A program made the position numbers and the translations under genes. Under the pieces are notes generated by a model. It did not search any database. It saw only the letters and a program-made list of their open reading frames with translations, and was not told the origin of the DNA. From Sphingobacteriaceae bacterium (GTDB lineage: Bacteria; Bacteroidota; Bacteroidia; B-17B0; Aurantibacillaceae): a stretch of 64,000 bases of DNA. The stretch covers positions 17,578 to 81,577 of the forward strand of contig JAHEYG010000002.1 of assembly GCA_023251725.1 (NCBI GenBank). Direction: 5' to 3'. Below, one piece after another: positions 3,928-47,311 of this stretch (positions within the stretch are counted from its first letter, which is position 1; each line of letters starts with the position of its first letter).

Positions 3928-3930
3928 ATT

Positions 3931-3984
3931 TTAGGATTTAGGATTTAGGATTTAGGATTTAGGATTTAGGATTTAGGATTTAGG
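3931..3984. repeat. 7-bp tandem repeat ttaggat, ~7.7 copies
   Basis: A perfect heptamer array lies directly upstream of paralogue 4. A single degenerate copy (tagg atttag) is found at the same relative place, about 417-426, upstream of paralogue 2, so the array probably expanded in this spacer by slippage. Confidence 0.9.
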
Positions 3985-4028
3985 AAAAAATTAAATCCTT
4001 TAATAAATAATGATTTGAAAATTTGAAG

Positions 4029-5681: not shown

Positions 5682-5705
5682 ATGGTTAGATGGTTAGATG
5701 GTTGG
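5674..5705 (+). repeat. 8-bp tandem repeat atggttag, four units
   Basis: Units at 5674, 5682, 5690 and 5698 (the last reads atggttgg). Same family and same position (overlapping the gene's stop codon) as the repeat at 2099-2170. Confidence 0.85.
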
Positions 5706-18891: not shown

Positions 18892-18946
18892 AAAATTATT
18901 TGAACAATATTTTTGTTTATCAATCGTTATTTTTGTGATGATATCC

Positions 18947-21900
18947 ATGAAAATAAATAAAAAACTATACCTTGTTACGTTGACTTTTACCTTTGGGTTG
19001 CTATTTAGTCAGAAAAACAAGGAAATTCTCAATCAAAACAACTCAATAATTGGTGTAAATCCGGTTTCTAAAACCGTTTTTAACGAAACTCCACAAGTTC
19101 CGTTAAATTTAGAAGGCGCTCAATACGATGTTGATAAAAACAATTTCCCCTATTTTTTAACATCTAAATCTATTTCTAAAAATAATTTTGTAAAAGCGAA
19201 TTTAAAAAACGTTCAAACGGTTGTCCTATCTCCTGATATTTCAAAAAAAATTACCGGCTTTTTCAAAACACAAATTAGTAACGAATTTAATCTTGATATT
19301 CAATACGCACAAAATGGTAATGTTCAAATAGCTTATCTCAAAATAACTCCATACCGTTTAAACGATCAAAATAATATTGAAGAACTGATTACTTATGATG
19401 TGGATTGGGAAGTTATGGCAAACGAGGCCTCACTTAAACAAAAAAACCCAATCACTAATTTTAAAAACACTTCCGTTTTAGCCAGTGGAAACTGGTATAA
19501 AATTGGCATTGCAAAAACAGGTATCTATAAACTGGATAAAACATTTTTAAAAAACATTGGCCTTGATGTTAATACAATAAATCCTAAAGATATTCGAATA
19601 TACGGTAACGGCGGGCACATGGTTCCGGAAGCAAATTATGTTTTCAGATACGATGATTTGGAAGAAAATTCGATTGAAGTACTTGGCGAAGCAGATAATG
19701 TTTTAGATAATACTGATTATGTACTTTTTTACGGAGTGGGGACAGACGAATGGAAACAAGATCAAAATCATTATTTGTCATGTCTTAACTTTCATCACCA
19801 ACTAAATTACTATTCTGATACCAGTTATTATTATATCACAACTGATTTGGGTGCGGGGAAAAGAATTAATACTGTTGCTTCACTGGGAGTTGCTCCAACC
19901 AATGTGTGTTCATCTTACGATTATTACGATTTTCATGAACAAAACGGTACCAACTTTATTAAATCGGGAAGGCAATTTTATGGAGAATATTTTGACCTAG
20001 TTCCTTCTTTTAGTTTTTCCTATCCTATCAATAACCTAGTTATAGGCGACAGTGTTAGTGCCTTAGTAAGTGTTGCAGCACGGGGTGCCACTGCTACAAA
20101 TTATAATTTATCATATAGTGGCAGTTCAGTTAACTTTAGCACTACAGCTGTTAATATTAATGATTACTTGGGTGATTTTGTTTCTATCACCACCAACTGT
20201 TCAAAAACCCTTTGCAACAGTTCGTTCATTTTAAATTTTACCATTACCAAACAAACTGCTTCTTGTATTGGATGGCTCGATTACATTATGTTTAATGCCC
20301 GAAGAAATCTGGTGTTTAATAATTCTCAATTTTTCTTTAGAGATCTTCGTACATCAGGACATTTAAACATTAAAGGAATTGGTACACCTGATGCTGATCC
20401 ATTGCTTACAACTACCAAATTTATGATGAGTACAAATAATTATTCCAATATTAGCGTGTGGAATGTTAGTGATCCGTTAAATGTGAAGAATCAGGCTTAC
20501 AATTTAACAGGGTCGCAATTAGATTTTACTATTAATAACGATTCTCTAAATGAATTCGCCACATTTAGCGGAACCGATTTTTTAATTCCTGTCTTTGTAT
20601 CAAAAGTGGCCAACCAAAACCTTCACTCGGTTACACAAGCCGATTTTATTATTGTTACTCACCCCGAATTTTTATCTCAAGCACAACAAGTAGCACAGAT
20701 TCATCAGCAACACGATTCGTTAAATGTAACTGTAGTTACTACCGAACAAGTGTATAATGAATTTTCGAGTGGTAAACCTGACATAAGCGGAATAAGAGAT
20801 TTTGAAAGAATGATTTATAACCGCAATTTAAATTCAGCAAAACCACTTAAGTACGTACTTCTTATAGGTGATGGTTCATACAAAGTGAAAGACCGTAACA
20901 TTTCTTCTAACACCTCTTTTATTCCCGTTTACGAAAATGAAAATTCTTATTCTCCAACACTTTCTACAGTAAGTGACGATTTTTTTGGATGGTTAGACCC
21001 CAGTGAGGGCGCAGATTGGAGTTCGAGTTTAGTAGACGTTGGAGTGGGTCGTTTTCCGGTGAAGAATTCTTCAGAAGCATCTGCAGCAGTTGCAAAAGTA
21101 GAAGCTTATTACAAAAAAAATTATTCGTTTTCGGCTACCGATAATGAAAATTTATGTACCAGCGCTGTTAGTTTTCCTTTGGGAGATTGGCGTACTTGGG
21201 TTTGTTTTATAGCCGACGATGAAGATTATCAAACCCACATGAACGATGCCGATAACCTCGCTAAAAAAGTAAAAACCGCGCATCCCGAAATAAATATTGA
21301 TAAAATTTATGCCGATTCCTATATACAATATACGACCCCGGGAGGAGACCGTTACCCGGATGCAAATTCGGCTATTGATCACAGAGTAGATAAAGGAAGT
21401 TTAATTTTAAATTATACCGGTCATGGTGGTGAAGTTGGACTTGGTCATGAAAGATATCTCGAAAACTCCCAGATACAAGCTTATAAAAACATTAATAACA
21501 TGCCGCTTTTTATTACAGCCACTTGTGAATTTAGTCGTTTTGATGACCCGGAAAGAACTTCGGCAGGCGAATTATGTTTCTTAAACCCCGAAGGGGCTGC
21601 AATTGGTTTGTTAACCACAGTTAGATTGGCATTTTCTAATACCAATTTTGTTTTAAACAGTAATTTGTATGATGTAGCTTTTGAACCAATGAATGATGGT
21701 AAAATGCCGTCTTTGGGCGATATTTCAAAACTTACCAAGCAAAAAGCCGGCTTAAGTTTTTATTATTTAAATTTTCATTTATTGGGAGACCCTGCGTTAC
21801 GATTGGCTTATCCGCAAAAGCAGGTTTTTACAACAGAAATTAATGGGAAGTTGGTGGATCCGAGTAAAACAGATACTCTTCGAGCTTTATCAAAAGTTAC

Positions 21901-22921
21901 CATTAAAGGATTTGTTGGAAGTACGGAAGGTACTAAGACAAAAAAAATGGTGGATTTTAACGGCATTTTATATCCCACGGTATTTGATAAAGAACAAAAA
22001 ATTACTTGCCTCGGTAATGATGCTGCTTCCCTAACAGCTTCGGGTCCGTTTCAATTTTTACTTCAAAAAAACATTATTTATAAAGGAAAAGTACAAGTTG
22101 TTAATGGTGACTTTAGTTTTAGTTTTATCGTACCGAAAGACATTGCCTATAATTATGATTTTGGAAAAATAAGTTATTACTCCCATAACGGACAAACAGA
22201 TGCTATCGGTTATAATAAAAATTTTTATATAGGAGGTGCTTCCAATAATATTGTTTCTGATAATGTTGGGCCTTCAATAGCAATGTATTTAAATGATAAA
22301 AAATTTGTTTCGGGTGGTACAACCAATCAAAAACCTAATTTATATGCCGAGGTAGCCGACTCAAGCGGTATTAATACAGTAGGTACCGGAATTGGTCACG
22401 ATATAAATGCCATTTTAGATGGTAACTCGGGCAAACCAATTATTTTAAATGATTATTACGAGGCCGATTTAAATAATTATCAAAAAGGAAAAATAAAATA
22501 TCCATTTGATCAGTTAACGGAGGGAAATCATCGATTAAGTTTGAAAGTATGGGATGTTCAAAATAACTCGAATATTGTTTATACCGATTTTGTAGTAGCT
22601 CAATCAGCCGAAATGGCTCTAACACATGTATTAAATTATCCCAATCCATTTACAACGCATACTAAATTTTATTTTGAAAATAATCAGTGCTGTACAACCA
22701 TAAAAGTAAACGTTCAGATATATACTATAACCGGCAAAGCGGTTAAAACAATAAGTTTAACTTTAAAAAACGAAGGCTTCCGATCGGATGGAATTGATTG
22801 GGATGGTAAAGACGACTTTGGTGATAAATTGGCTAAAGGAGTTTACATTTATAAATTAAGCATCAGCGATCCGGAAAATAAAAAAGCCGAGAAAACCGAA
22901 AAATTAGTAATATTAAATTAG
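18947..22921 (+). CDS. porU: Type IX secretion system sortase PorU (peptidase C25 family)
   Basis: PorU removes the C-terminal sorting domain of T9SS cargo at the cell surface and links it to an anchor. I choose ATG 18947, which starts the signal peptide (ends LLFSQ); GTG 18935 and ATG 18938 are upstream alternatives. The gingipain-like domain starts near ADFIIVTHPEFL (about residue 565) and holds the catalytic dyad His826 (NYTGHGGEVGLGH) and Cys860 (TATCEFSRFDDP). The C-terminus (LNYPNPFTTHTKFYF to KLVILN) is itself a T9SS-type sorting domain, as known for PorU. It is followed by porV after 36 bp. Confidence 0.94.
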   Translation: MKINKKLYLVTLTFTFGLLFSQKNKEILNQNNSIIGVNPVSKTVFNETPQVPLNLEGAQYDVDKNNFPYFLTSKSISKNNFVKANLKNVQTVVLSPDISKKITGFFKTQISNEFNLDIQYAQNGNVQIAYLKITPYRLNDQNNIEELITYDVDWEVMANEASLKQKNPITNFKNTSVLASGNWYKIGIAKTGIYKLDKTFLKNIGLDVNTINPKDIRIYGNGGHMVPEANYVFRYDDLEENSIEVLGEADNVLDNTDYVLFYGVGTDEWKQDQNHYLSCLNFHHQLNYYSDTSYYYITTDLGAGKRINTVASLGVAPTNVCSSYDYYDFHEQNGTNFIKSGRQFYGEYFDLVPSFSFSYPINNLVIGDSVSALVSVAARGATATNYNLSYSGSSVNFSTTAVNINDYLGDFVSITTNCSKTLCNSSFILNFTITKQTASCIGWLDYIMFNARRNLVFNNSQFFFRDLRTSGHLNIKGIGTPDADPLLTTTKFMMSTNNYSNISVWNVSDPLNVKNQAYNLTGSQLDFTINNDSLNEFATFSGTDFLIPVFVSKVANQNLHSVTQADFIIVTHPEFLSQAQQVAQIHQQHDSLNVTVVTTEQVYNEFSSGKPDISGIRDFERMIYNRNLNSAKPLKYVLLIGDGSYKVKDRNISSNTSFIPVYENENSYSPTLSTVSDDFFGWLDPSEGADWSSSLVDVGVGRFPVKNSSEASAAVAKVEAYYKKNYSFSATDNENLCTSAVSFPLGDWRTWVCFIADDEDYQTHMNDADNLAKKVKTAHPEINIDKIYADSYIQYTTPGGDRYPDANSAIDHRVDKGSLILNYTGHGGEVGLGHERYLENSQIQAYKNINNMPLFITATCEFSRFDDPERTSAGELCFLNPEGAAIGLLTTVRLAFSNTNFVLNSNLYDVAFEPMNDGKMPSLGDISKLTKQKAGLSFYYLNFHLLGDPALRLAYPQKQVFTTEINGKLVDPSKTDTLRALSKVTIKGFVGSTEGTKTKKMVDFNGILYPTVFDKEQKITCLGNDAASLTASGPFQFLLQKNIIYKGKVQVVNGDFSFSFIVPKDIAYNYDFGKISYYSHNGQTDAIGYNKNFYIGGASNNIVSDNVGPSIAMYLNDKKFVSGGTTNQKPNLYAEVADSSGINTVGTGIGHDINAILDGNSGKPIILNDYYEADLNNYQKGKIKYPFDQLTEGNHRLSLKVWDVQNNSNIVYTDFVVAQSAEMALTHVLNYPNPFTTHTKFYFENNQCCTTIKVNVQIYTITGKAVKTISLTLKNEGFRSDGIDWDGKDDFGDKLAKGVYIYKLSISDPENKKAEKTEKLVILN

Positions 22922-22957
22922 TACATTTGGAACTCATTTTTTGTGAGCGATTTTTAT

Positions 22958-24205
22958 ATGAGCAAAAAAGTTTTAGTATATAGTTTTGTTTTTAGTACTC
23001 TATTTTATGTTGTTGGGAAGGCTCAAATAAATACCGGCCAATTATCAGGCGCTATCAATCCTATTACAACTTCTGTACCTTTTCTTTTAATTGCTCCTGA
23101 CTCGCGTTCGGGAGGAATGGGAGAAGTAGGTGCCGCAACTATGCCCGATGTTAATTCTATCCATTGGAATGGCTCTAAACTGGCATTTTCAGATAAAACT
23201 ATGGGTATTGGAATTTCTTATACCCCTTGGCTCCGGCAACTAGTACCGGATATAAGTCTTATGTATGTTAGCGGATATCGTAAGATTACTAAAACCAGCG
23301 TTGTGGGAGCATCGTTGAGGTATTTCTCTTTGGGAAATATTACTTTTACAGATATTCTTGGTAATACCACCGGACAATTCAAACCAAATGAATTTGCAAT
23401 TGATGTTGCCTTTTCTCAAAAATTATCTGAAACAGTTTCTGCCGGAATTGCCGTTCGTTACATAAATTCTAATTTAACCGGCGGCGTTTCGTTAAGTAGC
23501 GGTCAGCCTACAAGAGCCGGAGAAGCTGTGGCGGTTGATATTTCGATGTTTTACAAAAGCAAAAAAAACAAGATTCAAATTGCCGGTAAAAAATCAACTG
23601 TTACATTTGGTTTAGCCTTTACTAATATTGGTACTAAAATTTCTTATACAACCGTTCAAAATTTTATTCCAATTAATCTTCGGCTAGGAGGAGGTTTAAA
23701 AGTTGATATAGATGATTTTAATACATTTGGTTTATATGCCGATTTAAACAAACTTTTAGTGCCTACCCCACCTATATATTTAAAAACTTCAACCGGAAAT
23801 GACTCTATTAATTTTTCAACCGGCTCAAAAATTATTAGCTCGGGTCGCGATCCTAATGTGCCGGTGGCGCAAGGAATTTTTCAATCTTTTGGAGATGCGC
23901 CCGGTGGGTTTGGCGAAGAGTTAAAAGAAATAAATATTGCCGCAGGTCTCGAATATTGGTACGCCAAGCAATTTGGTGTAAGAGCAGGTTATTTTTATGA
24001 AAATGAAACTAAAGGGGGCCGCCAGTTTTTTACTGTGGGATTAGGAGTAAGATACAGCGTTTTTGGTTTAGATATGGCTTACCTTATTCCCACCACTTTA
24101 AGAAACCCTCTTCAAAACACACTTCGTTTTACTTTAACGTTCGACTTCGATGCCTTTAAGAGTCAAAATAAAGAATCTAAAACAGAAACAGTTCCTAATC
24201 CTTAA
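22958..24205 (+). CDS. porV: Type IX secretion outer-membrane protein PorV (LptO)
   Basis: PorV is an FadL-like outer-membrane barrel that shuttles cargo from the translocon to PorU. Start ATG 22958 gives a signal peptide ending VVGKAQ; a GTG at 22943 only adds five residues. Family signatures are TTSVPFLLIAPDSRSGGMGEVGAAT, with NSIHWNGSKLAF soon after, and the barrel end AYLIPTTLRNPLQNTLRFTL. About 415 residues, the usual length. It lies directly behind porU in an apparent operon. Its last 11 bp overlap the end of the convergent nuclease gene. Confidence 0.94.
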   Translation: MSKKVLVYSFVFSTLFYVVGKAQINTGQLSGAINPITTSVPFLLIAPDSRSGGMGEVGAATMPDVNSIHWNGSKLAFSDKTMGIGISYTPWLRQLVPDISLMYVSGYRKITKTSVVGASLRYFSLGNITFTDILGNTTGQFKPNEFAIDVAFSQKLSETVSAGIAVRYINSNLTGGVSLSSGQPTRAGEAVAVDISMFYKSKKNKIQIAGKKSTVTFGLAFTNIGTKISYTTVQNFIPINLRLGGGLKVDIDDFNTFGLYADLNKLLVPTPPIYLKTSTGNDSINFSTGSKIISSGRDPNVPVAQGIFQSFGDAPGGFGEELKEINIAAGLEYWYAKQFGVRAGYFYENETKGGRQFFTVGLGVRYSVFGLDMAYLIPTTLRNPLQNTLRFTLTFDFDAFKSQNKESKTETVPNP

Positions 24206-31451: not shown

Positions 31452-31459
31452 TATATTTG
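31452..31459 (+). promoter_or_regulatory. -7 box TATATTTG just upstream of the second porP/sprF
   Basis: An exact TAnnTTTG match ends 6 bp before ATG 31466. If active, the transcript would be nearly leaderless; no convincing -33 TTTG is seen. Confidence 0.3.
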
Positions 31460-31465
31460 TTATGG

Positions 31466-32488
31466 ATGATTTTTAAGAAAACATACTTTCTTTTTTTATT
31501 TTTGGTTTCCGGTCTTTTTACTTCGGTTAAAAGTCAGGATATACATTTTTCGCAATACAATGGTTCAGTATTAAATATGAGTCCTGCCTTCACCGGTTTT
31601 TTTGACGGCGATTACCGAATCGGCGCAATTTACCGAAGCCAATGGCAAAATGTACCTGTACCTTATAAAACTTTTTCAATTGCAGGTGATGCGCGGTTTA
31701 AACCTAAAACTATGAAAAGCGATTGCATTGGCGCTGGAATTTTATTTAACAACGATGTGGCAGGTGACGCAGCTTACTCTATTAATCAGGTTTATCTTAG
31801 CGGTTCATTTATTCATAAAATTCTTAAAGATTCCAGTTTACTCATTAGCGCCGGTTTAACAATGGGAATTAGCAGTTTGGGATTTAATTATAATAAAATG
31901 ACTTTTGATAATCAGTACGACGGGTACGCTTATAATAGTTCATTCGGAACCGGCGAAAATTTTTCTCAAACTCAAACAACTTACTTCGATTTTAGTATTG
32001 GATTAGCTGCCCAGTATTCTTTTTCTCAATTTACAAAAATCGTTTATGGTTTTTCTTATAGTCATTTTGCGAATCCCACAATATCTTACCAAAATAATTC
32101 AAACAGCAAACTCGATTCAAAATCGGTTAACTTCATTAGTTTTTCGACTCCGCTCGGCAAAAAATTTTACGTCATCCCCGAATTAATTTTCTTGAATCAG
32201 GGAAAGTATAATGAGTTTGTTCCGGGTGCCAATTTAAAATTTGTTATGGATGGTGATAAAAACCATACTGTATCGCTTGGTATTTATTATCGAACCGATG
32301 ATGCGGTTATTAGCCGATTGGGATATACCTTTAAATCAACAACTGCAGGAGTAAGTTACGACATAAATACCAGTAAATTTATGGCGGCTACCAACAACAG
32401 AGGTGCGTTCGAAATTTACGTAACACACATCATCAAAAGAATCCGTCCTTTTATTCCTAAGAAACGGGTTTGTCCGGTCTTTATGTAA
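31466..32488 (+). CDS. PorP/SprF-family type IX secretion membrane protein
   Basis: ATG 31466 starts a signal peptide (MIFKKTYFLFLFLVSGLFTS to KSQ); the open frame reaches 9 bp further to a TTG. The mature start DIHFSQYNGSVLNMSPAFTG is the family signature, and the rest (about 340 residues in total) alternates hydrophobic residues as in a beta-barrel. It differs clearly from the porP at 18 kb (longer loops, other C-terminus). The PorE-like gene follows 6 bp later. In Bacteroidota, porP/sprF-PorE-like pairs are often linked to one secreted adhesin; here the nearest downstream cargo genes are the three paralogues from 34.6 kb. Confidence 0.88.
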   Translation: MIFKKTYFLFLFLVSGLFTSVKSQDIHFSQYNGSVLNMSPAFTGFFDGDYRIGAIYRSQWQNVPVPYKTFSIAGDARFKPKTMKSDCIGAGILFNNDVAGDAAYSINQVYLSGSFIHKILKDSSLLISAGLTMGISSLGFNYNKMTFDNQYDGYAYNSSFGTGENFSQTQTTYFDFSIGLAAQYSFSQFTKIVYGFSYSHFANPTISYQNNSNSKLDSKSVNFISFSTPLGKKFYVIPELIFLNQGKYNEFVPGANLKFVMDGDKNHTVSLGIYYRTDDAVISRLGYTFKSTTAGVSYDINTSKFMAATNNRGAFEIYVTHIIKRIRPFIPKKRVCPVFM

Positions 32489-32494
32489 TTATTT

Positions 32495-34477
32495 GTGAAC
32501 ACCAAAACTGCGCTACATATTTTTTTTATAATTGTTGGATTATTAATTCTTCCCAATAAACTTTCTTCTCAATCCAAAAAAACACTTTATGCCGATGGCC
32601 AAAAAAGCATCGATGCTAAAGATTATTTTGCGGCCGCCCAATATTTTAGTCAATTAATTTTACTCGATTCAAGTCAGATTATTTATCAATACAAATACGC
32701 CGAAGCGTCGCGCTTAAATTATGATTTTGATATTTCTTATTATTGGTACGATAAGGTAATGAAAGAAGATAACGCAAAAATGTATCCCGAAACTCCTTTT
32801 TGGATGGCCACTATTTTAAAAAGCAAAGCCCAATATAAGGAGGCGAAAAAATTATTTGATAAGTTTTATAAGAAACAAAAAATAAATAAAGACAAGCAAA
32901 GAGTTCAACTAACCAATAAAGCAAAACAGGAAATTGATGCCTGCGATCTTTCTCTTATTCTCATTAGCAATCCTGTAAACGTAATCGTAAATCATCTCGA
33001 CAGCAACATTAATAGCAAGGTAAGTGAATATGCGCCCTTTGAATTAGATACCGTTTTGTTTTTTTCTTCGCTGCGCAACACCGGCAAAAAAAAACGCGAT
33101 ATCAATAATGTAGGATTTAATAAATTATTTTCGTCGAGTAAAAAAGAAGAATTATGGCAAAAAGCAAAAGCTTTGGATAGTTTGTTTAACTCGAGCAATA
33201 TTCATAATGCCAACACCTCTTTCAATGAAGATTTTACAAAAATATTTGTTTCGCGATGCACCGCTGTTAATTCTGTGGATTATACCTGTCAGATTTTTTA
33301 TTCGGAATATAAAAATAAAAACTGGTCGGTTTTAAAAGCATTGCCACCGCCTATTAATCTTTACAATTCAAATACCACCCAACCTTGCGCCACCAAATTA
33401 AATGGTAAAGATGTTTTATTTTTCAGTAGTAATCGTGGGGGAGGCCTGGGCGGTATGGATATTTGGTATTGTTTTTTCGACAGCCTATTAAAATTTGAAA
33501 TGCCGGTTAATGCCGGGAAAAATGTGAACACTTCCGAAAATGAAATTACACCTTGGTTTGTAAAAGAAACCAATTCGCTATTTTTTAGCAGTACCTGGCA
33601 CAAAGGATTAGGTGGTTTCGACATTTTTAAAAGTGAGTTAAAAGACCATCAATTTGCCGAGCCGCAAAATTTAGGTTATCCCATTAACAGCAGCTACAAT
33701 GATATTTATTACAGTGTAAATTCTAAAAAAAATAAAGCCTACATTTCTTCCAACCGAATTGGTTCTTACTTCGAGGAAAAACAAAGTTGCTGTAACGACA
33801 TTTACAGTTTCGCTATTGAACCTTTAACTGAACCTCAAAAACCTGTAACCATTGATACTACAAAATTTATAATGGACCAATTAAAAGTATTGGTGCCTCT
33901 TACACTGTATTTTCATAACGATGAGCCCGAGCCTCGTTCAAAAGTTATAGTTACAAAAAAGAATTATAAAAAAACATATGAAGATTATACAATTCTTAAA
34001 CCAAAGTATTTATTAGAATATCCGGGCGGATTAAAAGACAAAGAAAAAGAACAAGCAGAAAACCGAATTAATAATTTTTTTGAAGACAGCGTTGATGCCG
34101 GAATGCATGACCTGGATAAATTTGCCGTTTTATTGGAAGAAGTTTTATTACGTGGCGAAAAAGTAAAAATTACCATGAAGGGATATTGTAGCCCATTGGC
34201 CAGTACCGATTACAATGTTAATTTGGCAAAACGCCGAATAAGCAGTTTGCGAAATTATTTTTTAGAATATAAAGCCGGGATATTTGTAAAATACGTAGAA
34301 AACCCGGATTCAACTCAAGGTAAAATTGTTTTTACGGATGAAGATATTGGAGAGTTACCCATAAGTAAAGTGAGCGATAATGTGAAGGATGTAAAAAATT
34401 CGGTGTACAGTCCTTTTGCAGCAGCCGAACGTAAAATTCAAATTATTGCAGTAAGTAGTTTTAGTGAGATAAAATAA
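32495..34477 (+). CDS. PorE-like protein: TPR, beta-propeller and OmpA-like end
   Basis: GTG 32495 starts a signal peptide ending KLSSQ. A TPR-like helical region (about residues 30-150), a PD40/WD40-like propeller (VLFFSSNRGGGLGGMDIWYC, LFFSSTWHKGLGGFDIF, KAYISSNRIG; about 165-440) and an OmpA_C-like domain (about 540-655) follow in order, as in PorE-type proteins that link T9SS parts to peptidoglycan. In the OmpA part the usual GHTDxxG is replaced by KGYCSPLASTDYN, and NxxLSxxRA by NVNLAKRRI, so the aspartate that binds diaminopimelate is absent at its usual position. Probable operon with porP/sprF (6 bp gap). Confidence 0.82.
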   Translation: MNTKTALHIFFIIVGLLILPNKLSSQSKKTLYADGQKSIDAKDYFAAAQYFSQLILLDSSQIIYQYKYAEASRLNYDFDISYYWYDKVMKEDNAKMYPETPFWMATILKSKAQYKEAKKLFDKFYKKQKINKDKQRVQLTNKAKQEIDACDLSLILISNPVNVIVNHLDSNINSKVSEYAPFELDTVLFFSSLRNTGKKKRDINNVGFNKLFSSSKKEELWQKAKALDSLFNSSNIHNANTSFNEDFTKIFVSRCTAVNSVDYTCQIFYSEYKNKNWSVLKALPPPINLYNSNTTQPCATKLNGKDVLFFSSNRGGGLGGMDIWYCFFDSLLKFEMPVNAGKNVNTSENEITPWFVKETNSLFFSSTWHKGLGGFDIFKSELKDHQFAEPQNLGYPINSSYNDIYYSVNSKKNKAYISSNRIGSYFEEKQSCCNDIYSFAIEPLTEPQKPVTIDTTKFIMDQLKVLVPLTLYFHNDEPEPRSKVIVTKKNYKKTYEDYTILKPKYLLEYPGGLKDKEKEQAENRINNFFEDSVDAGMHDLDKFAVLLEEVLLRGEKVKITMKGYCSPLASTDYNVNLAKRRISSLRNYFLEYKAGIFVKYVENPDSTQGKIVFTDEDIGELPISKVSDNVKDVKNSVYSPFAAAERKIQIIAVSSFSEIK

Positions 34478-34627: not shown

Positions 34628-36742
34628 ATGAAAAAACATTTATTACTTGGAACCGCACTTTTAGTAGCTATAAGCGCCTTTCCGCAAAACAACAAACAAT
34701 CAATTCCTACTGGTGTGGTTAAACAGCAATTCAGAAAAAACATTATTGCTGAAAAAGAAGTTCAAAACACTTTACCAACAACAGTTTCTCCAATTAATAA
34801 AATTAAACCTTTTTCAAAAAGTAATCTCAATGCCAAGGTGGCGGCTATTACAGTTACGCGTTTATCAGGCTCAATAAATGCGTTTGGCGTTTTAACAGAC
34901 GAATCCAATTCACTTTGTTATAGTCCGGGTCCAAATATTGTATCCTTTATACATCGCAAAAGTAGTACCTACACCCCTGCAGCCAATGGAAATTCAGGTA
35001 CCATGGTAGCCATGCTTTCAACTAATATCGGTACTACATGGGATTCAACTTGTTTGTGGACAAGTGCCGCTAGCTTCGCACGTTATCCTCAGGGGGGGAT
35101 TTATAATCCCATCGGAAACACAACTTATACAAACGCTACTGTTGTAGGAATGGGACCTTTTCATAATGGAGGCCCTTGGGCAGGTAACTGGTATGCGAGT
35201 AAAAAAATTACTTTACCGGGCACTAATGCCTCCGGAACGGATTGTCAGGCTATTGATAATGCAGCTTTACCACCGGGAGTTAATGTGCATCACCTTTCTA
35301 GTAACGCTTTCAGCTCAATTGACGGTGGTTATGTTAGATCAATGTCATTAATTTGTAACGACGATGCTGGAGCTACCAATGTAGCATTTGGCCCGAGAGG
35401 TGCAATGATGACAAAAGGTTTATATACTGCAGGATCGTTTTCTTGGACTACTGACTCTTTTGCCCCTCCAACAACATTAAGAACAGATGGATCGAAACAA
35501 ATTAATATTAACGCTCCTTTAACTGCATGGAACGAAGCGGGAACCATCGGATATGTTGTAATGTATGGCAGCCGACTTGGTGCACCAACAGCTCAAAAAG
35601 GTTATCAGCCCATAGTTTATAAAACTACTAACAGCGGCGCCAGTTGGGTATTATTGCCTAATAATGATTTTACCACACCTGCGTTTAAAGGATTGAAGGA
35701 TCGTATTAAAGGAATTAACACTAACAGCAATGTAGTTATCCCAATGTTTACAACGCTTGAGGGTTACGATGCCGCAGTAGACGTTAATGGTAATTTACAT
35801 ATAGTTACCACTGTTCTTGGCACCTCTAGTGCAGACGTAGATTCTTTAGATTATAATTACCAGTTTACAGTTGGAGGAGAAATCTATAATTACGATTTTG
35901 CAAAATATTATGGTAAACCAACTATTTATGATTTTTATACTTTGAGTGGTGGTGGATGGAATTATTTTATTGTGGATACTATGGGAAGTGTTGGTCCTTC
36001 AGGTAATGCCGGCCAACCCGGAGTTGCAGCAAATCCTTGGGCAGCCGCAGCTCAATTATCAATTGATGCACGAATTCAAATCAGCAGAACTGCTGACGGT
36101 AAAAAAATATATTATAGCTGGACCAGTACAGATCCGGCAGTTGCAGGTAATAATTGGAATATTTTTCCAAATATTCGGGTTAAAGGATTTGATGTTCTTA
36201 CAGATAAAGTAACACCTACTTATTCAGTTACTGATGGCAGTGTTACAACTCCTCTGGGTTTATATGGGGTGGATGGTTCAGCTTTTTTTCATTATATGTG
36301 TGATAAAGCTGTTGGTTCAGGTACCGCATGTGTTGATATGTTATTTACTTCAACTAATAATGCTGCTGCTGACGGTAACGTTGATGTTGATCATTATTTT
36401 ATTAAAGGGCAATCTATTTGCGCAACTGCTTTTACACTTACACCTTGGAGACCACTTGGAGTTACAGAAGTTGCTAATTCTGAAACCTCAACAGAAGTTA
36501 ATATTTATCCTAATCCTGCCAGCGAGGCAGCAACAATATCGGTTGGTTTAAAAGATGTGAAAGATTTCGAAATAAGTCTTTATAATTCGATTGGGCAACA
36601 AGTGATTACTACAATGAAAATTAACGGTAAGCCGGGAGTTAATGATGTATTTGTTGATTTAAGCAAATTAAATTCGGGATTATATTTTTATTCTGTAAAA
36701 ACAGATAATTCAGTAGTTACAAAAAAATTAATTATCGAATAA
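34628..36742 (+). CDS. T9SS type A cargo protein, sialidase/BNR-like propeller, paralogue 1 of 3
   Basis: The 704-residue product has a signal peptide (MKKHLLLGTALLVAISAFPQ), a poorly conserved spacer, then a large beta-rich region (about residues 75-610) with BNR-like motifs such as VYKTTNSGASWVLLP and SRTADGKKIYYSWTST, which suggest a sialidase-like propeller fold. No complete set of sialidase catalytic residues is evident, so an enzymatic role is uncertain. The last ~80 residues are a type A sorting domain (NIYPNPASEAATISV to KKLIIE). It is the first of three tandem paralogues and ends in its own terminator, so it is a separate transcript. Confidence 0.85.
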   Translation: MKKHLLLGTALLVAISAFPQNNKQSIPTGVVKQQFRKNIIAEKEVQNTLPTTVSPINKIKPFSKSNLNAKVAAITVTRLSGSINAFGVLTDESNSLCYSPGPNIVSFIHRKSSTYTPAANGNSGTMVAMLSTNIGTTWDSTCLWTSAASFARYPQGGIYNPIGNTTYTNATVVGMGPFHNGGPWAGNWYASKKITLPGTNASGTDCQAIDNAALPPGVNVHHLSSNAFSSIDGGYVRSMSLICNDDAGATNVAFGPRGAMMTKGLYTAGSFSWTTDSFAPPTTLRTDGSKQININAPLTAWNEAGTIGYVVMYGSRLGAPTAQKGYQPIVYKTTNSGASWVLLPNNDFTTPAFKGLKDRIKGINTNSNVVIPMFTTLEGYDAAVDVNGNLHIVTTVLGTSSADVDSLDYNYQFTVGGEIYNYDFAKYYGKPTIYDFYTLSGGGWNYFIVDTMGSVGPSGNAGQPGVAANPWAAAAQLSIDARIQISRTADGKKIYYSWTSTDPAVAGNNWNIFPNIRVKGFDVLTDKVTPTYSVTDGSVTTPLGLYGVDGSAFFHYMCDKAVGSGTACVDMLFTSTNNAAADGNVDVDHYFIKGQSICATAFTLTPWRPLGVTEVANSETSTEVNIYPNPASEAATISVGLKDVKDFEISLYNSIGQQVITTMKINGKPGVNDVFVDLSKLNSGLYFYSVKTDNSVVTKKLIIE

Positions 36743-36842: not shown

Positions 36843-36999
36843 ATTTATCATTCCCGTGATAGTTACTTAGATGTTATCCCCTCCATCTTATTTAATTGTT
36901 AAAACCCCAATTTTGTTAAAATGTTTTTGTTACTATATGTGATTTTTTACTACTTTTATGTGCTTAATTAAAAAAATAACAATTAAACCAAATAATAAA

Positions 37000-39111
37000 A
37001 TGAATAAACATCTACTCCTAGGATCAGCGCTTTTAGTAGCTATCAGCGCGTATCCGCAAGCCGGCAAACAGGTAAAGCCTACCGGAATTATTAATGAACA
37101 AGCCAGGAAATACTCAGATTTTGAGAAAGAAGTACAAAATAGTACTACTATTTCAACAACAGCGCCTGTTAAACACGCTTCAAAAGCTAATCCAAATGCG
37201 AAAGCAAATGCTAATACTTGTATGCGTTTTACAGGTTCAATGAACGTTTTTGGTTTATTGATTTCTGAAGCAAATTCGCTTTGTTATAGTAAAGGACCAA
37301 ACATTGTATCTTTTGCTCACCGCAAAAGCCCTACTTATACTCCTGCGGCAAATGGCAATTCGGGCTCACAAGTGACTATGCTTTCTAGTAACGCTAATAG
37401 CGTAACCACTACTTGGGATTCGACCTGTACTTGGACTAATGCTACCGATTTAGCACGTTATCCTCAGGGTGGAGTTTATAATCCGCTTGGTAATACAACT
37501 TATACCAACGCCTACGTTGTAAGTATGGGGCCTATTACCAATGGTACAAACTGGACAGGTAACTGGTATTGTAGTAAAAAAATTACCTTGCCGGGTACCA
37601 ATGCTTCAGGTGTTGATCAGCAATCAATGAACAACGCCGCTTTACCTGCAGGAGTTAAAGTTCACCATTTTTCTCGTTACTCTTTTTCTTCTATCGATGG
37701 TAGTTATGTTAGATCAATGTCTACTGTATTAAACGACCCTGCCGGTGCAACAAACGTGGCTTATGGTCCTCGTGGAGCAATGATGACTAAAGGTTTATTT
37801 ACAGCCGGAACATTTAGCTGGACAACTGATTCCTTTATTCCTCCTGTTATTGCAAGAGGTGATGGTTCAAAACAAATTAATGCTAATTCGCCATTATGTG
37901 TTTGGAGTCCTACCCCATCAATTGGATATGTAGTTATGAATGGTTGCCGCTCGGGTGCCCCAACTGCTCAAAAAGGATATCAGCCTATTGTTTATAAAAC
38001 TACTACCGGCGGTGCCAGTTGGGTTTTATTACCAAGCAACGATTTTACAACACCTAATTTTAAGGGTTTAACAGATCGTATTTATGGAATTAATACTAAT
38101 AGTAATATACTTATCCCTCAATTTTCACAATCTGAAGGTTATGATGCTGCTGTTGACGTTAATGGAAATTTACATATTGCAATCACTGTTGTTGGTTCTT
38201 CTAGTCAAAATAACGACTCATTAGAATATGCTTTCCAGTTTGCGATCGGTGGTGAGAATTACGGTTTCGATTACTCTCCATTATATGGCAAACCAATAGT
38301 TTATGACTTTTTTACAATGTCTGGCGGTGGTTGGGATTACTTTCTAGTTGATTCAATGGCAGGTGAAGGTCCTTCAGGAACAACCGGACAACCCGGCTTT
38401 GCAGCTAATCCTTGGTCTAATCCGGGAGCGGTTGGAATTGACTCACGTATTCAAATGAGCCGTACTGATGATGGAAAAAAATTATATTACAGTTGGACTT
38501 CTTCTGACCCGGCAATTGCAGGTAACAATTGGAACATTTATCCGAATATCCGTGTTAAAGGTTTGGATGTTGTTATGAATAAAGTAACTCCTACTTATTC
38601 TGTTACTGATGGTCTTTTGTGTCCTGGGTTTACAGGTGTTGACGGATTAGCTTATTGGCATTATATGAGTGATAGAGCTATTGGTTCAAGTACAGCTTGT
38701 GTTGATATGCCATTTACTGCATCAAATAATGCTACTAATAACGGTAATATTGCAGTTGACCATTATTATATTAAAGGTCAACAAATTTGTGCTGCAGCAT
38801 TTACTTTAACTCCATGGAAACCGTTAGGTGTTGCTTCAATCAGCAATACTACTCCTTCTACGGATGTTAATATTTATCCTAATCCTGCGAGCCAAGCGGC
38901 AACAATTTCGGTTGGTTTAAAAGATGTTAAAGATTTTGAAATAAGTCTTTATAATTCTATCGGACAACAAGTTCTTTCAACCGTAAAAATTAATGGTAAA
39001 CCAGGACTTAATGATGTATTTGTTGATTTAAGTAAATTAAATTCAGGTGTGTATTTTTACTCGGTTAAAACTGATAACTCAGTGGTAACTAAAAAATTAA
39101 TTATTGAATAA
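37000..39111 (+). CDS. T9SS type A cargo protein, sialidase/BNR-like propeller, paralogue 2 of 3
   Basis: Start is ATG 37000 (signal peptide MNKHLLLGSALLVAISAYPQ); 14 upstream in-frame codons from 36958 have no signal character. The beta-rich core runs from CMRFTGSMNVFGLL (about residue 78) to about 610 and matches its two neighbours along its whole length, including HRKSPTYTPAANGNSGSQV, DLARYPQGGVYNP and VYKTTTGGASWVLLP. The type A sorting domain ends KKLIIE. Codon choice is regular and the gene has a good promoter and terminator, pointing to strong expression. A surface-layer-like or matrix protein is one possibility; a glycan-binding protein is another. Confidence 0.85.
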   Translation: MNKHLLLGSALLVAISAYPQAGKQVKPTGIINEQARKYSDFEKEVQNSTTISTTAPVKHASKANPNAKANANTCMRFTGSMNVFGLLISEANSLCYSKGPNIVSFAHRKSPTYTPAANGNSGSQVTMLSSNANSVTTTWDSTCTWTNATDLARYPQGGVYNPLGNTTYTNAYVVSMGPITNGTNWTGNWYCSKKITLPGTNASGVDQQSMNNAALPAGVKVHHFSRYSFSSIDGSYVRSMSTVLNDPAGATNVAYGPRGAMMTKGLFTAGTFSWTTDSFIPPVIARGDGSKQINANSPLCVWSPTPSIGYVVMNGCRSGAPTAQKGYQPIVYKTTTGGASWVLLPSNDFTTPNFKGLTDRIYGINTNSNILIPQFSQSEGYDAAVDVNGNLHIAITVVGSSSQNNDSLEYAFQFAIGGENYGFDYSPLYGKPIVYDFFTMSGGGWDYFLVDSMAGEGPSGTTGQPGFAANPWSNPGAVGIDSRIQMSRTDDGKKLYYSWTSSDPAIAGNNWNIYPNIRVKGLDVVMNKVTPTYSVTDGLLCPGFTGVDGLAYWHYMSDRAIGSSTACVDMPFTASNNATNNGNIAVDHYYIKGQQICAAAFTLTPWKPLGVASISNTTPSTDVNIYPNPASQAATISVGLKDVKDFEISLYNSIGQQVLSTVKINGKPGLNDVFVDLSKLNSGVYFYSVKTDNSVVTKKLIIE

Positions 39112-39314: not shown

Positions 39315-41408
39315 ATGAATAAACTTCTACTCTTAGGGTCTGCGTTTATAGTAACTATAGGCGCCTATTCACAAAACGGAAAACAAACCAAACCTTCCGG
39401 TTTTATTAATAAACAAATTGAAAGAGAAATTGCGATTGAAAAGGAAGTACAAAACAATCCCCTTTCAATAACCATCGCTCGTTCTAAAAAAAATACAATT
39501 AAATCTAATGCAAAAACAACAGCCATTACTTGTATGCGTTTTACAGGATCAATGAATGCAATTGGTTTATTAGTTTCTGCTGCCAATTCGCTTTGTTATA
39601 ATCCCGGGCCAAACATTATTTCGTTTGCACACCGTAAAAGTCCTACTTACACACCTGCTGCAAACGGTAACTCCGGTTCACAAGTATTTATGCTTTCGAA
39701 TAACCTCGGTGCCACTTGGGATTCAACTTGTCATTGGGCAAATGCAACCGATTGGGCACGTTATCCGCAAGGTGGCGTGTACAATCCTGCAGGAAATACA
39801 ACTTATACTAACGCTTATGTTGTAGGTATGGGGCCTTATACACAAACAGCCGGTGGTTGGTTTGGTAACTGGTACGCCAGTAAAAAAATTACTTCACCGG
39901 GTAATAACACACCGGGTACCGATCAGCAATCGATGTTAAACACAAGTTTACCGGGTGGCGTAAAAGTTCATCATTTTTCACGGTATGCTTTTTCTTCTAT
40001 TGATGGCGGTTATGTTAGATCAATGGCCGGATTACTTAATGATCCTGCCGGTGGAGCAGCTTATGGTGCACGCGGTGGCATGATGGCAAAAGGTTTATTT
40101 ACTGCAGGAAGTTTTACATGGACCACAGATTCTTTTGCACCTCCGGTATCAGTTACTACTGCCGGTGTAAAAAATGTTCAAGCTACTCCTTTACAAGCCT
40201 GGGATGCAAACGGTGTTACCGGTTATGTTATTCTTTACGGTTGCAGAGCAGGTGTTCCTACTTCTCAAAAAGGATATCAACCTATAGTTTATAAAACTAC
40301 TAATAGCGGAGCCAGCTGGGCATTGTTGCCTAGTCAAGATTTTACGGGCCCTTCGTTTAGAGGTTTAACAGATAGAATCTATCCAACGGCCAGCAATACT
40401 AATGTAATTGTTCCTCAATTTTCGAATGGAGAAGGATGGGATGCAACTGTTGATGTTAACGGTAATCTTCATATTGTTACAACTGTTGTTGGAAGTTATA
40501 GCAGCGATACCGATTCTTTAGGTTATGCTTTTCAGTTTGCTATTGGCGGAGAAAATTATAGTTACGATTACGCTACTTATGGTTATCCAACTATTTATGA
40601 TTTTTATACAATGTCGGGTGGTGGATGGAATTATATGATTGTTGATTCTATGTTGAGTGAAGGACCTTCCGGAGCATCTGGACAACCCGGTTACGCTGCT
40701 AATCCATGGACAAGTGGTACAGCAAAACTTTATTTAGATGCGCGAATTCAAATTAGCCGTACAGCAGATGCTAAAAAAATATATTATAGCTGGACTGCTT
40801 CTGAACCTTCGGTTGCCGGTAATAACTGGAACGTTTTTCCTAATATTCGCGTTAGAGGTTATGATGTGCTTATTGATAAAGTAACTCCAACCTATTCTGT
40901 AACCGACGGAAGTACTTGTCCGGGCTTTACCGGAGTTGACGGGTTGGCTTTTTGGCATTACATGTGCGACAGAGCTATTGGCTCGAGCACTGCTTGTGTT
41001 GATATGCCATTTACAGCCTCTAATAATGTTACAAATAATGGTGATATTCCAGTTGATCATTATTATTTAAAAGGACAAACCATTTGTGCAAATGCTTTCA
41101 CCATAACACCATTCAGACCAACTGGAGTTACAGCAATTAGTAATACTTCGCCTTCAACCGAAGTTAATATTTATCCTAACCCAGCCAGCCATGCCGCTAC
41201 CATTTCGGTTGGTTTAAAAGATGCTAAAGATTTTGATATAAGTCTTTATAATTCTATCGGGCAACAAGTTATTGCCACCATCAAAATTAATGGTAAGCCT
41301 GGACTTAATGATGTATTTGTGGATTTAAGCAAATTAAATTCGGGTATGTATTTTTACTTGGTTAAAACTGATAACTCAGTGGTAACTAAAAAATTAATTA
41401 TTGAATAA
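39315..41408 (+). CDS. T9SS type A cargo protein, sialidase/BNR-like propeller, paralogue 3 of 3
   Basis: The 697-residue product starts with a signal peptide (MNKLLLLGSAFIVTIGAYSQ) and has the same core as paralogue 2: CMRFTGSMNAIGLL, HRKSPTYTPAANGNSGSQV, DWARYPQGGVYNP and VYKTTNSGASWALLP. The type A sorting domain (NIYPNPASHAATISV to KKLIIE) is nearly identical to those of the other copies, and the last 56 bp across the stop codon (41360-41415) are identical to paralogue 2 (39063-39118). It is closer to paralogue 2 than to 1, so it probably arose in a second duplication. Own terminator downstream; function as for the other copies. Confidence 0.85.
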   Translation: MNKLLLLGSAFIVTIGAYSQNGKQTKPSGFINKQIEREIAIEKEVQNNPLSITIARSKKNTIKSNAKTTAITCMRFTGSMNAIGLLVSAANSLCYNPGPNIISFAHRKSPTYTPAANGNSGSQVFMLSNNLGATWDSTCHWANATDWARYPQGGVYNPAGNTTYTNAYVVGMGPYTQTAGGWFGNWYASKKITSPGNNTPGTDQQSMLNTSLPGGVKVHHFSRYAFSSIDGGYVRSMAGLLNDPAGGAAYGARGGMMAKGLFTAGSFTWTTDSFAPPVSVTTAGVKNVQATPLQAWDANGVTGYVILYGCRAGVPTSQKGYQPIVYKTTNSGASWALLPSQDFTGPSFRGLTDRIYPTASNTNVIVPQFSNGEGWDATVDVNGNLHIVTTVVGSYSSDTDSLGYAFQFAIGGENYSYDYATYGYPTIYDFYTMSGGGWNYMIVDSMLSEGPSGASGQPGYAANPWTSGTAKLYLDARIQISRTADAKKIYYSWTASEPSVAGNNWNVFPNIRVRGYDVLIDKVTPTYSVTDGSTCPGFTGVDGLAFWHYMCDRAIGSSTACVDMPFTASNNVTNNGDIPVDHYYLKGQTICANAFTITPFRPTGVTAISNTSPSTEVNIYPNPASHAATISVGLKDAKDFDISLYNSIGQQVIATIKINGKPGLNDVFVDLSKLNSGMYFYLVKTDNSVVTKKLIIE

Positions 41409-45133: not shown

Positions 45134-47311
45134 TTAATTTACTGACTTACCAAAAAAGTCAACCATAATTAATTCTTCTAAAGTATAACGTTTGCCATCA
45201 ATGAATCCTACAATCCAGGCATCCGTTTGTCCTTTTGCAATTGCTTTTTGTCTTTGCACCTCGGCGTCTTTAATAGTTTTAAATTCTAATTGTGTAAATC
45301 GTGTAATTCCATCGGGATAATCAACCACTTCGGGTTTACCATACTGAATTAAATGATTGTATTTATAATTTTCGGGGTGACGATAGGCTGCAATCTGAAC
45401 TTTAAAAATCATTTTACCCGCACAATAATTTCCGCCAATGGCCAATAATTTTTTATAAATGGCCGGATCGTTAAGTGACTTTCCTTTTAAAGCGGTAAAA
45501 TCCGGCAATGGTCCGCCCGGATCGCAAGGTTCATTTGTTACAGGATTGTCGGGATTATTCGGGTTGTTGGGATTATTTGGATTGTTTGGATTATTTGGGT
45601 TGTTGGGATTGTTTGGATTATTTGGGTTGTTGGGATTGTTTGGATTATTTGTTGCAACAGTTTCTGAAGTTGTTGTTGTAGTTTTTGTTGGATTTGAAAC
45701 TACATCGGTTGGTGTTTTACCCGAATACAAATAAATATCTTTTTTTACTTCTAAAAATTTAGCAAGACCTTCCACATCAAATTCTTCTTCTACCGGATCG
45801 TAACCGTTAGCAGTTACTTTTATTTTATATACCGAGCCCGGACTCAAAGCCAAAAGATATTTTCCGGTGGAAGAGTTAGAATAATACGGTCCAATTAAAG
45901 TAGAGGTACTCATTTTAAAAACTTCAATTTTACTTTCTATAGGTTTATCATCACCATAAATAGTACCTTTTAGCATAGCAACAATTGGTCGGTCGCCCAA
46001 AATACCGGGCGTTACCATATAAATATCTTGTTTACCTTTTCCGCCCGCCGAACCTCTGTCGGAAGAAAAGAAACCTTTATCGCCACGTGCATTAATTACG
46101 TAATAACGGTCGGCTTCCGTAGTATTGAGCGGTATGCCCATATTTTTTGGCTCTGTCCAATCGTTATCTCTTCTTACCGAAAACATAATATCATAATCTC
46201 CAATACTGGTATGACCTTTAGAACTAAAAAACATGGTGATGCCATCCGGGTGAATAAATGGCGCATCTTCGTCGTAAATTGTATTAATAGAAGGACCTAA
46301 ATTTGTAGCCGGCGCCCAATCGCCATTTATTTTTTCTGAAATCCAAATATCTCGTCCTCCTATTCCGCCCGGACGTTCGCTGGCGAAATATAAATAATGG
46401 CCGTCGGCCGATAGTGAGCAGCTTCCTTCCCAGGCATCGGTATTAATGTTTTTATTTAAATGAACCGGCGACGACCATTCGGTACCATTTAAAGTGCACA
46501 TGTATATATCACCCTTGTCTTTATCGGTACTATTAAACGTAAATAAAAATTGTCCGTCGGGCGAAATAGCAATGGCACCATCGTTACCCTTGGTATTTAT
46601 TGATTTTATTCCAATAGGTTCGCCCCATGTGGAGTCGGAAGTTTTTAAACTCATATAAACATCTTCATGAAAATAACCTTCTTCTTCATCCGGCTTCAAA
46701 TCGTCATTTTCTTTTCCCCCCATACTTTTTTTGCCAACGTAAGTAAAAATAAGCATCGATTCATCAGCTGTAATAATAGGAACGTATTCTGATTCTTCGG
46801 TATTAACAGCACCACTTATATTACTGATATCGGCTTCTACTTTTTTATCGAGTAACTCTTTACCATTTTTACAGTTTTTAAGGGCGAGATTCGCGTCAGC
46901 TATTAACGGTTTATCATCTTCATTTATTTTAGTTCCTTTTCCTGCAATAAAAGCTTCGAAGCTTCTAACGGCCTCGTCGAACCGATAATTTATATGATAT
47001 GCTTTTCCTAAATAATAATCTACTACTTTATCATGGTCCTGATTACCGCGTTTAAGATCTTCAAAGATTTCGATGGCACGCAATTTTTTTTCGGGATAAA
47101 ACAGGCAACAGTATCCTAATTTAAATTTGAAATCAAGGTTTTTAGGGTTTTTAGCAAAAAGTTTATCAAATAAAACGTAAGCTTTACTGAATTCTTTATT
47201 GTTAAACAAGAAAGTGGCCTGCTCTTCGAGGTCTTTGTTAGATTGCGACCGCACACTAAACGCCAATAAGAACAGCATTAATACCAATGAAACCGTAAAC
47301 TTATTTTGCAT
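45134..47311 (-). CDS. PorE-like protein: TPR, beta-propeller, carboxypeptidase-regulatory-like and SPOR-like domains
   Basis: A 725-residue secreted or periplasmic protein: signal peptide (ends SVRSQS), TPR-like helices (about residues 25-165), a PD40 propeller (about 175-430) with blades such as ISPDGQFLFTF, YLYFASERPGGIGGRDIW, TMFFSSKGHTSIGDYDI and KGFFSSDRGS, a carboxypeptidase-regulatory-like beta domain (KGTIYGDDKPIESKIEVF), a linker of about eleven NNP tripeptides, and a C-terminal SPOR-like domain (FKVQIAAYRHPENY, then RFTQLEFKTIKDAE). In PorE-type proteins the last domain is OmpA-like; here SPOR would provide peptidoglycan contact instead. It stands alone on its strand. Confidence 0.82.
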   Translation of the reverse strand: MQNKFTVSLVLMLFLLAFSVRSQSNKDLEEQATFLFNNKEFSKAYVLFDKLFAKNPKNLDFKFKLGYCCLFYPEKKLRAIEIFEDLKRGNQDHDKVVDYYLGKAYHINYRFDEAVRSFEAFIAGKGTKINEDDKPLIADANLALKNCKNGKELLDKKVEADISNISGAVNTEESEYVPIITADESMLIFTYVGKKSMGGKENDDLKPDEEEGYFHEDVYMSLKTSDSTWGEPIGIKSINTKGNDGAIAISPDGQFLFTFNSTDKDKGDIYMCTLNGTEWSSPVHLNKNINTDAWEGSCSLSADGHYLYFASERPGGIGGRDIWISEKINGDWAPATNLGPSINTIYDEDAPFIHPDGITMFFSSKGHTSIGDYDIMFSVRRDNDWTEPKNMGIPLNTTEADRYYVINARGDKGFFSSDRGSAGGKGKQDIYMVTPGILGDRPIVAMLKGTIYGDDKPIESKIEVFKMSTSTLIGPYYSNSSTGKYLLALSPGSVYKIKVTANGYDPVEEEFDVEGLAKFLEVKKDIYLYSGKTPTDVVSNPTKTTTTTSETVATNNPNNPNNPNNPNNPNNPNNPNNPNNPNNPNNPDNPVTNEPCDPGGPLPDFTALKGKSLNDPAIYKKLLAIGGNYCAGKMIFKVQIAAYRHPENYKYNHLIQYGKPEVVDYPDGITRFTQLEFKTIKDAEVQRQKAIAKGQTDAWIVGFIDGKRYTLEELIMVDFFGKSVN
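45547..45651 (-). repeat. Tandem 9-bp repeat encoding (Asn-Asn-Pro)n
   Basis: Inside the SPOR-protein gene, about eleven nearly identical 9-bp units (aataatcca-type on the coding strand) encode an NNP linker. Alternating synonymous variants in a longer 27-bp-like order point to duplication of larger blocks. Confidence 0.9.

Follow-up and report, generated by a model that had tools for sequence, protein, structure and literature searches.

OmpA_C domains bind the stem peptide of peptidoglycan. A domain of this kind forms the C-terminal end of PorE, a protein of the type IX secretion system (T9SS) of Porphyromonas gingivalis (NCBIfam NF052230), and PorE-like proteins are invoked to account for the attachment of the type IX machinery and of surface adhesins to the cell wall. 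The published boundaries of PorE are a TPR region at residues 25-149, a propeller at 167-435, a carboxypeptidase-regulatory-like domain (CRD) at 441-527 and the OmpA domain at 534-668 (PMC7192894). PorE binds a barrel, PorP, and F. johnsoniae has six porP-like genes that adjoin porE-like genes (PMC9143113). The CHU_0125 family of Cytophaga hutchinsonii (NCBIfam NF053607) likewise combines a TPR-PD40 body with an OmpA end (PMC5891637).

SPOR domains are another group of wall-binding modules: the characterised members bind glycan that lacks peptides and is enriched at septa (PMC6895207). RlpA holds the glycan via Q270, helped by F274 four residues further on and by a patch of Arg; R285 of FtsN is homologous to R309 of RlpA, while DamX employs a Trp in strand b4 (PMC6895207).

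Here we describe a gene in which such a module stands at the end of a PorE-like body. It lies in a 64,000-nucleotide stretch of the genome of a Sphingobacteriaceae bacterium (the window), is an intact open reading frame with an ATG start and no internal stops, and encodes in order a TPR region, a PD40 propeller, a CRD, a linker and a SPOR domain, see Table 1.

Table 1. Position of the gene and of the parts of its product; coordinates refer to the window.
Feature	Coordinates	Strand	Length and evidence
Whole gene, TPR-PD40 propeller-CRD-linker-SPOR protein	45134..47311, stop included	-	725 aa; ORF, Pfam, AlphaFold
N-terminal signal peptide, residues 1-22	47246..47311	-	Hydrophobic stretch, sequence inspection
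TPR region, residues 23-150	46862..47245	-	Pfam (weak TPR), AlphaFold helices
Five-bladed PD40/TolB-like beta-propeller, residues about 165-435	46007..46819	-	Pfam PD40 repeats 9.5e-19; model strands; Foldseek
Carboxypeptidase-regulatory-like beta-sandwich (CRD), residues about 436-520	45752..46006	-	Seven model strands 445-528; Pfam CarboxypepD_reg below threshold (0.12)
Low-complexity linker, residues 530-594	45530..45724	-	TRF; pLDDT <50 over 532-595; ortholog linkers
C-terminal domain, residues 596-725: extension, then SPOR fold	45137..45526	-	Alignment A1, model
SPOR core, residues 634-705	45197..45412	-	Profile, fold and conservation evidence; Q639 and Y643 (b1), R671 (b3), W699 (b4)

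In the full-length AlphaFold model (21 orthologs) the TPR helices extend up to residue 156, and fifteen strands between residues 162 and 433 form five three-stranded blades. The beta-sandwich and the disordered segment are followed by a domain of the order beta-alpha-beta-beta-alpha-beta at residues 634-704. TolB is the top match of the propeller among solved structures in Foldseek. The first three domains coincide with those of PorE, since their boundaries are nearly identical. No lipobox is present at the N-terminus, where the first Cys is residue 68, and Pfam gives no OmpA match in the protein. The layout given in the preliminary description, that of PorE with SPOR at the position of OmpA, agrees with Pfam, with the AlphaFold model and with the profile-profile comparison below.

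Pfam by itself does not recognise the C-terminal domain. The bare SPOR model (PF05036) has no match in the protein at E up to 1 and stays below its gathering score; the isolated domain gives no SPOR in Pfam and no match in NCBIfam. Only weak SPOR matches are found in relatives (7 of 22, the best at 0.0078), and DUF7353 outscores SPOR for this domain, yet is itself sub-threshold. An hmmsearch of the PDB sequences with A1, a profile built from 22 C-terminal domains, finds only CwlC, at an E-value of 1.4 that is not usable alone.

The relation becomes clear when profiles are compared with each other. A1 was aligned by hhalign with A2, which consists of 18 SPOR domains from loci picked up with Pfam's SPOR model, and the match has a probability of 95.3% (E 2.4e-8). 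The controls remain low: no more than 3.2% in 60 column shuffles, 0.1% with an OmpA profile and 0.0% with the reversed profile. Further, three bridging sequences (G030:C8, G020:C20 and G026:C35) score above the Pfam cut-off for SPOR, and A1 matches the same stretch in each of them with 87-91 bits.

The AlphaFold model of the isolated domain (pLDDT 86) has the beta-alpha-beta-beta-alpha-beta order of the RNP-like SPOR topology. Its first-ranked Foldseek match in the PDB is the SPOR domain of CwlC (1x60; probability 1.00, TMt 0.67, E 4e-3), and lower matches include the SPOR domain of RlpA with denuded glycan (6i09, probability 0.94) and DedD (6ztg among the matches). Taken alone the fold is a moderate line, because its E-value is only 4e-3.

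It could be argued that the SPOR call is spurious and that the domain has an unrelated alpha/beta fold: Pfam's SPOR model is silent on the sequence, DUF7353 scores better although below threshold, and every Foldseek E-value is above 0.001. Against this stand the shuffle-controlled profile match, the bridging sequences that pass the Pfam cut-off and the first rank of a SPOR structure in the fold comparison, so that this explanation is already disfavoured and we consider it very improbable. Profile-profile comparison, Pfam-passing relatives and fold are three independent lines, and they agree in showing that the domain is SPOR. The SPOR relation proposed in the preliminary description is therefore missed by a bare Pfam search, but it is found by these more sensitive comparisons.

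Q639, Y643, R671 and W699 are invariant among 21 orthologs. The first three appear to correspond to Q270, F274 and R309 of RlpA, a mapping made by motif and strand position rather than by superposed coordinates, and in the basic patch only one Arg is clearly assigned. From the sequence, it is a well supported prediction that the protein would be anchored to the wall through glycan. Alternatively, the SPOR fold may have been kept while the ligand is a protein or another surface glycan and not peptidoglycan. The domain does have an N-terminal extension of its own, with a largely conserved Cys pair (C596 and C630, in A1); the motifs GKSLND, located in this extension, DAWI and RYTLEEL are outside the SPOR consensus, and the sequence similarity to SPOR is remote. 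However, the glycan-contact positions are invariant, and in one relative described below the domain is swapped at the same place with OmpA, itself a peptidoglycan binder. We therefore regard another ligand as quite unlikely.

The linker ahead of the C-terminal domain contains about 11 Asn-Asn-Pro units at residues 553-588, encoded by an array of tandem 9-bp-based units at about 45543-45655 (TRF periods of 18, 27 and 36 bp). An NNP linker had been noted at this place before; it is there, though it is not conserved in relatives. It is present in the source species alone, while the linkers of the relatives differ in length and are Thr/Asn-rich or unrelated. The repeat as a functional hallmark was thus rejected, and the stretch is best read as a species-specific form of a variable linker that acts as a flexible spacer.

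Full-length orthologs with the same C-terminal end occur throughout the source family, as seen in a search of 60 genomes. In the survey of TPR-PD40-SPOR architectures that the preliminary description had called for, the architecture turned out to be clade-wide: the best 80 loci in a species-level genome collection all have an end of the same kind, and PD40 motifs are found wherever enough of the reading frame is available. Members of the source family usually have a single SPOR module. Orthologs from other families measure about 950 aa and contain two or three SPOR modules, of which the last has the same Cys-bounded extension. In a sample of 295 Bacteroidia genomes A1 is matched in 204 (E up to 0.001), a number in which other SPOR proteins are counted.

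The architecture has further variants. In the same genome, L122:2110-8556 (contig C69) encodes a TPR-PD40 protein of 2149 aa. It contains long helical repeats rich in Asn and Thr and terminates in several SPOR-like modules; many related genomes have giants of about this size that match the SPOR profile. In genome G059, L134:1391-4750 combines PD40, OmpA and two SPOR modules in one protein, and two more PD40-SPOR genes adjoin it. In general, the TPR-PD40-SPOR proteins are a clade of their own that spans many families of Bacteroidia, and its members often have SPOR modules in tandem. In a search of open-access papers we found no description of this class; the family is apparently both large and undescribed.

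The preliminary description assumed that SPOR had replaced OmpA in this protein. To a tree built on the TPR-PD40-CRD core, with the C-terminal domain excluded, this assumption does not conform. The SPOR-bearing rows form one group (67 rows, SH-aLRT 96) that is separate from the PorE-like OmpA rows, and a recent replacement of OmpA by SPOR in the source species is ruled out by the tree and by the SPOR-bearing relatives. SPOR is the state of the whole clade, and the lone swap goes in the opposite direction.

This swap is found in genome G036. There L067:3418-5592 is the positional ortholog of our gene with OmpA (PF00691, 58.5 bits) instead of SPOR, and it is nested with support of 98-100 among SPOR-bearing members of its own genus. 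Upstream of it lie bamA-ompH-ompH, as in several of the SPOR-bearing relatives, while the downstream synteny is gone. The protein can be aligned through the linker motif ILDSLL...ND and then continues with OmpA sequence, placing the breakpoint in the linker. We sought a second, SPOR-bearing copy of the ortholog in G036 and found none, and the search gave no SPOR/OmpA exchange in further genomes of the genus.

The nesting in the tree, the synteny, the missing second copy and the fact that G036 stands alone indicate that the SPOR end is ancestral and that OmpA entered once, through a break in the linker. The one swap visible in the tree is thus from SPOR to OmpA, in G036, and one assembled genome is behind it; an assembly artefact at the junction is unlikely. 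Since SPOR was exchanged for OmpA at the same place and in a positional ortholog, the two ends would have an equivalent role, wall anchoring.

Given the layout, the protein might belong to the T9SS as an equivalent of PorE, which binds PorP (PMC9143113), and link a barrel in the outer membrane to the wall. The window contains T9SS genes (a PorU-like peptidase, PorV and PorP/SprF), none of them adjoining the gene, and GldM_4th is present in most genomes that carry the TPR-PD40-SPOR family. However, the protein scores 172 bits against the NCBIfam T9SS_PorE model, which has a cut-off of 600, and another paralog in the genome has the highest score, 485 bits; the gene was rejected as the PorE of this genome on these numbers. 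None of the 38 genomes of the family has a protein that passes the 600-bit cut-off.

The neighbourhood, too, points away from T9SS. When a PorP/SprF neighbour is defined as one on the same strand within 400 bp, it is found for 8 of 15 OmpA-type paralogs and for 0 of 109 SPOR-type genes (Fisher p 6e-9, with rows that are related and some flanks that are short). Restricting the comparison to G000 and G007 gives 10 of 18 against 0 of 7 (p 0.02). We found no general conserved neighbour or operon partner of the gene within its family. The co-occurrence with GldM says little, since almost the whole class has GldM (GldM_4th in 258 of 295 Bacteroidia genomes): many genomes have GldM without the family, such as G057, G066, G072 and G073, where A1 has no match, and G096 has the TPR-PD40-SPOR architecture without a match to GldM_4th. 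The missing lipobox also argues against a PorE equivalent. The T9SS link suggested earlier has therefore gained no support; it is weakened, and we hold a role in this system to be unlikely.

Some other genes of the window deserve mention. A Peptidase_C25 gene for a PorU-like protein at 18935-22921 (+, 344 bits) is directly followed by PorV at 22943-24205 (+, 208 bits), which together make a T9SS sortase/shuttle pair. PorP/SprF at 31457-32488 (+) lies a few bases ahead of the gene for a second TPR-PD40 protein (32495-34477, +), whose tail is divergent and OmpA-like; this one belongs to the type that is paired with PorP and contrasts with the SPOR type. Three successive genes at 34628-36742, 36958-39111 and 39315-41408 (+) encode proteins of about 700 aa that carry T9SS type A sorting tails and otherwise lack clear Pfam domains. 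Perfect or near-perfect repeats of 7-8 bp, (GTTAAATG)10, (TTTAGGA)8 and ATGGTTAG, are located at 2094-2172, 3930-3985 and 5674-5703, where TPR-rich genes end or in the gaps between them, and are possibly phase-variable.

We propose, with a probability of roughly 0.7, that the gene encodes a periplasmic scaffold tethered to peptidoglycan through its glycan strands rather than its stem peptides. The protein would be exported to the periplasm by Sec without lipidation. The TPR region and the propeller would bind protein partners, as has been proposed for the same domains of PorE; the role of the disordered linker would be that of a spacer, and attachment to the glycan strands of the peptidoglycan would be through the C-terminal SPOR domain. 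The architecture itself is observed; that the protein binds wall glycan, that it acts as a scaffold and that it has a partner is what we infer.

A more specific possibility is that SPOR brings the protein to the division site by way of denuded glycan, which would make it an outer-envelope scaffold linked to division or daughter-cell separation. The preference of characterised SPOR domains for septum-enriched, peptide-free glycan (PMC6895207) and the conserved contact residues are consistent with such a recruitment. On the other hand, no division gene is consistently adjacent, the tandem SPOR arrays and the many paralogs per genome look more like general wall attachment, and G036 uses OmpA, which is not expected to favour septal glycan. 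A septal location is thus possible but doubtful, and general tethering to glycan is the reading that we prefer.

It is rather speculative that Bacteroidia have two parallel PorE-like sets: an OmpA-type that binds the stem peptide and is often paired with PorP, and a SPOR-type that binds glycan, is never paired with PorP and would be located at sites of amidase action, for example the septum. If this were true, the outer envelope would gain a division-site scaffold not known before. With its distinct neighbourhoods and a natural exchange, the SPOR sister set allows one to test directly if the location of such a scaffold is determined by its anchor domain.

Compared with the described systems, the protein shares with PorE the order of TPR, five-bladed propeller, CRD and peptidoglycan-binding domain. 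It differs in having SPOR and a long disordered linker where PorE has OmpA_C, in lacking the lipobox of PorE, in belonging to a separate clade and in having no PorP neighbour. With the CHU_0125 family it shares the TPR-PD40 body, at 195 bits over residues 7-515 against a cut-off of 620 bits; the match stops at residue 515, before the C-terminal domain, which in CHU_0125 is OmpA. With the SPOR proteins CwlC, FtsN, DamX, DedD and RlpA it shares the fold, the Gln and the aromatic residue in b1, the Arg in b3 and a preceding disordered linker. In those proteins the domain is joined to a transmembrane segment, a lipidated transglycosylase or an amidase, while here it is joined to a TPR-propeller-CRD scaffold, has a Cys-bounded extension and falls below the Pfam cut-off for PF05036. 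The annotation 'PorE-like' in Bacteroidia thus spans at least two classes of proteins.
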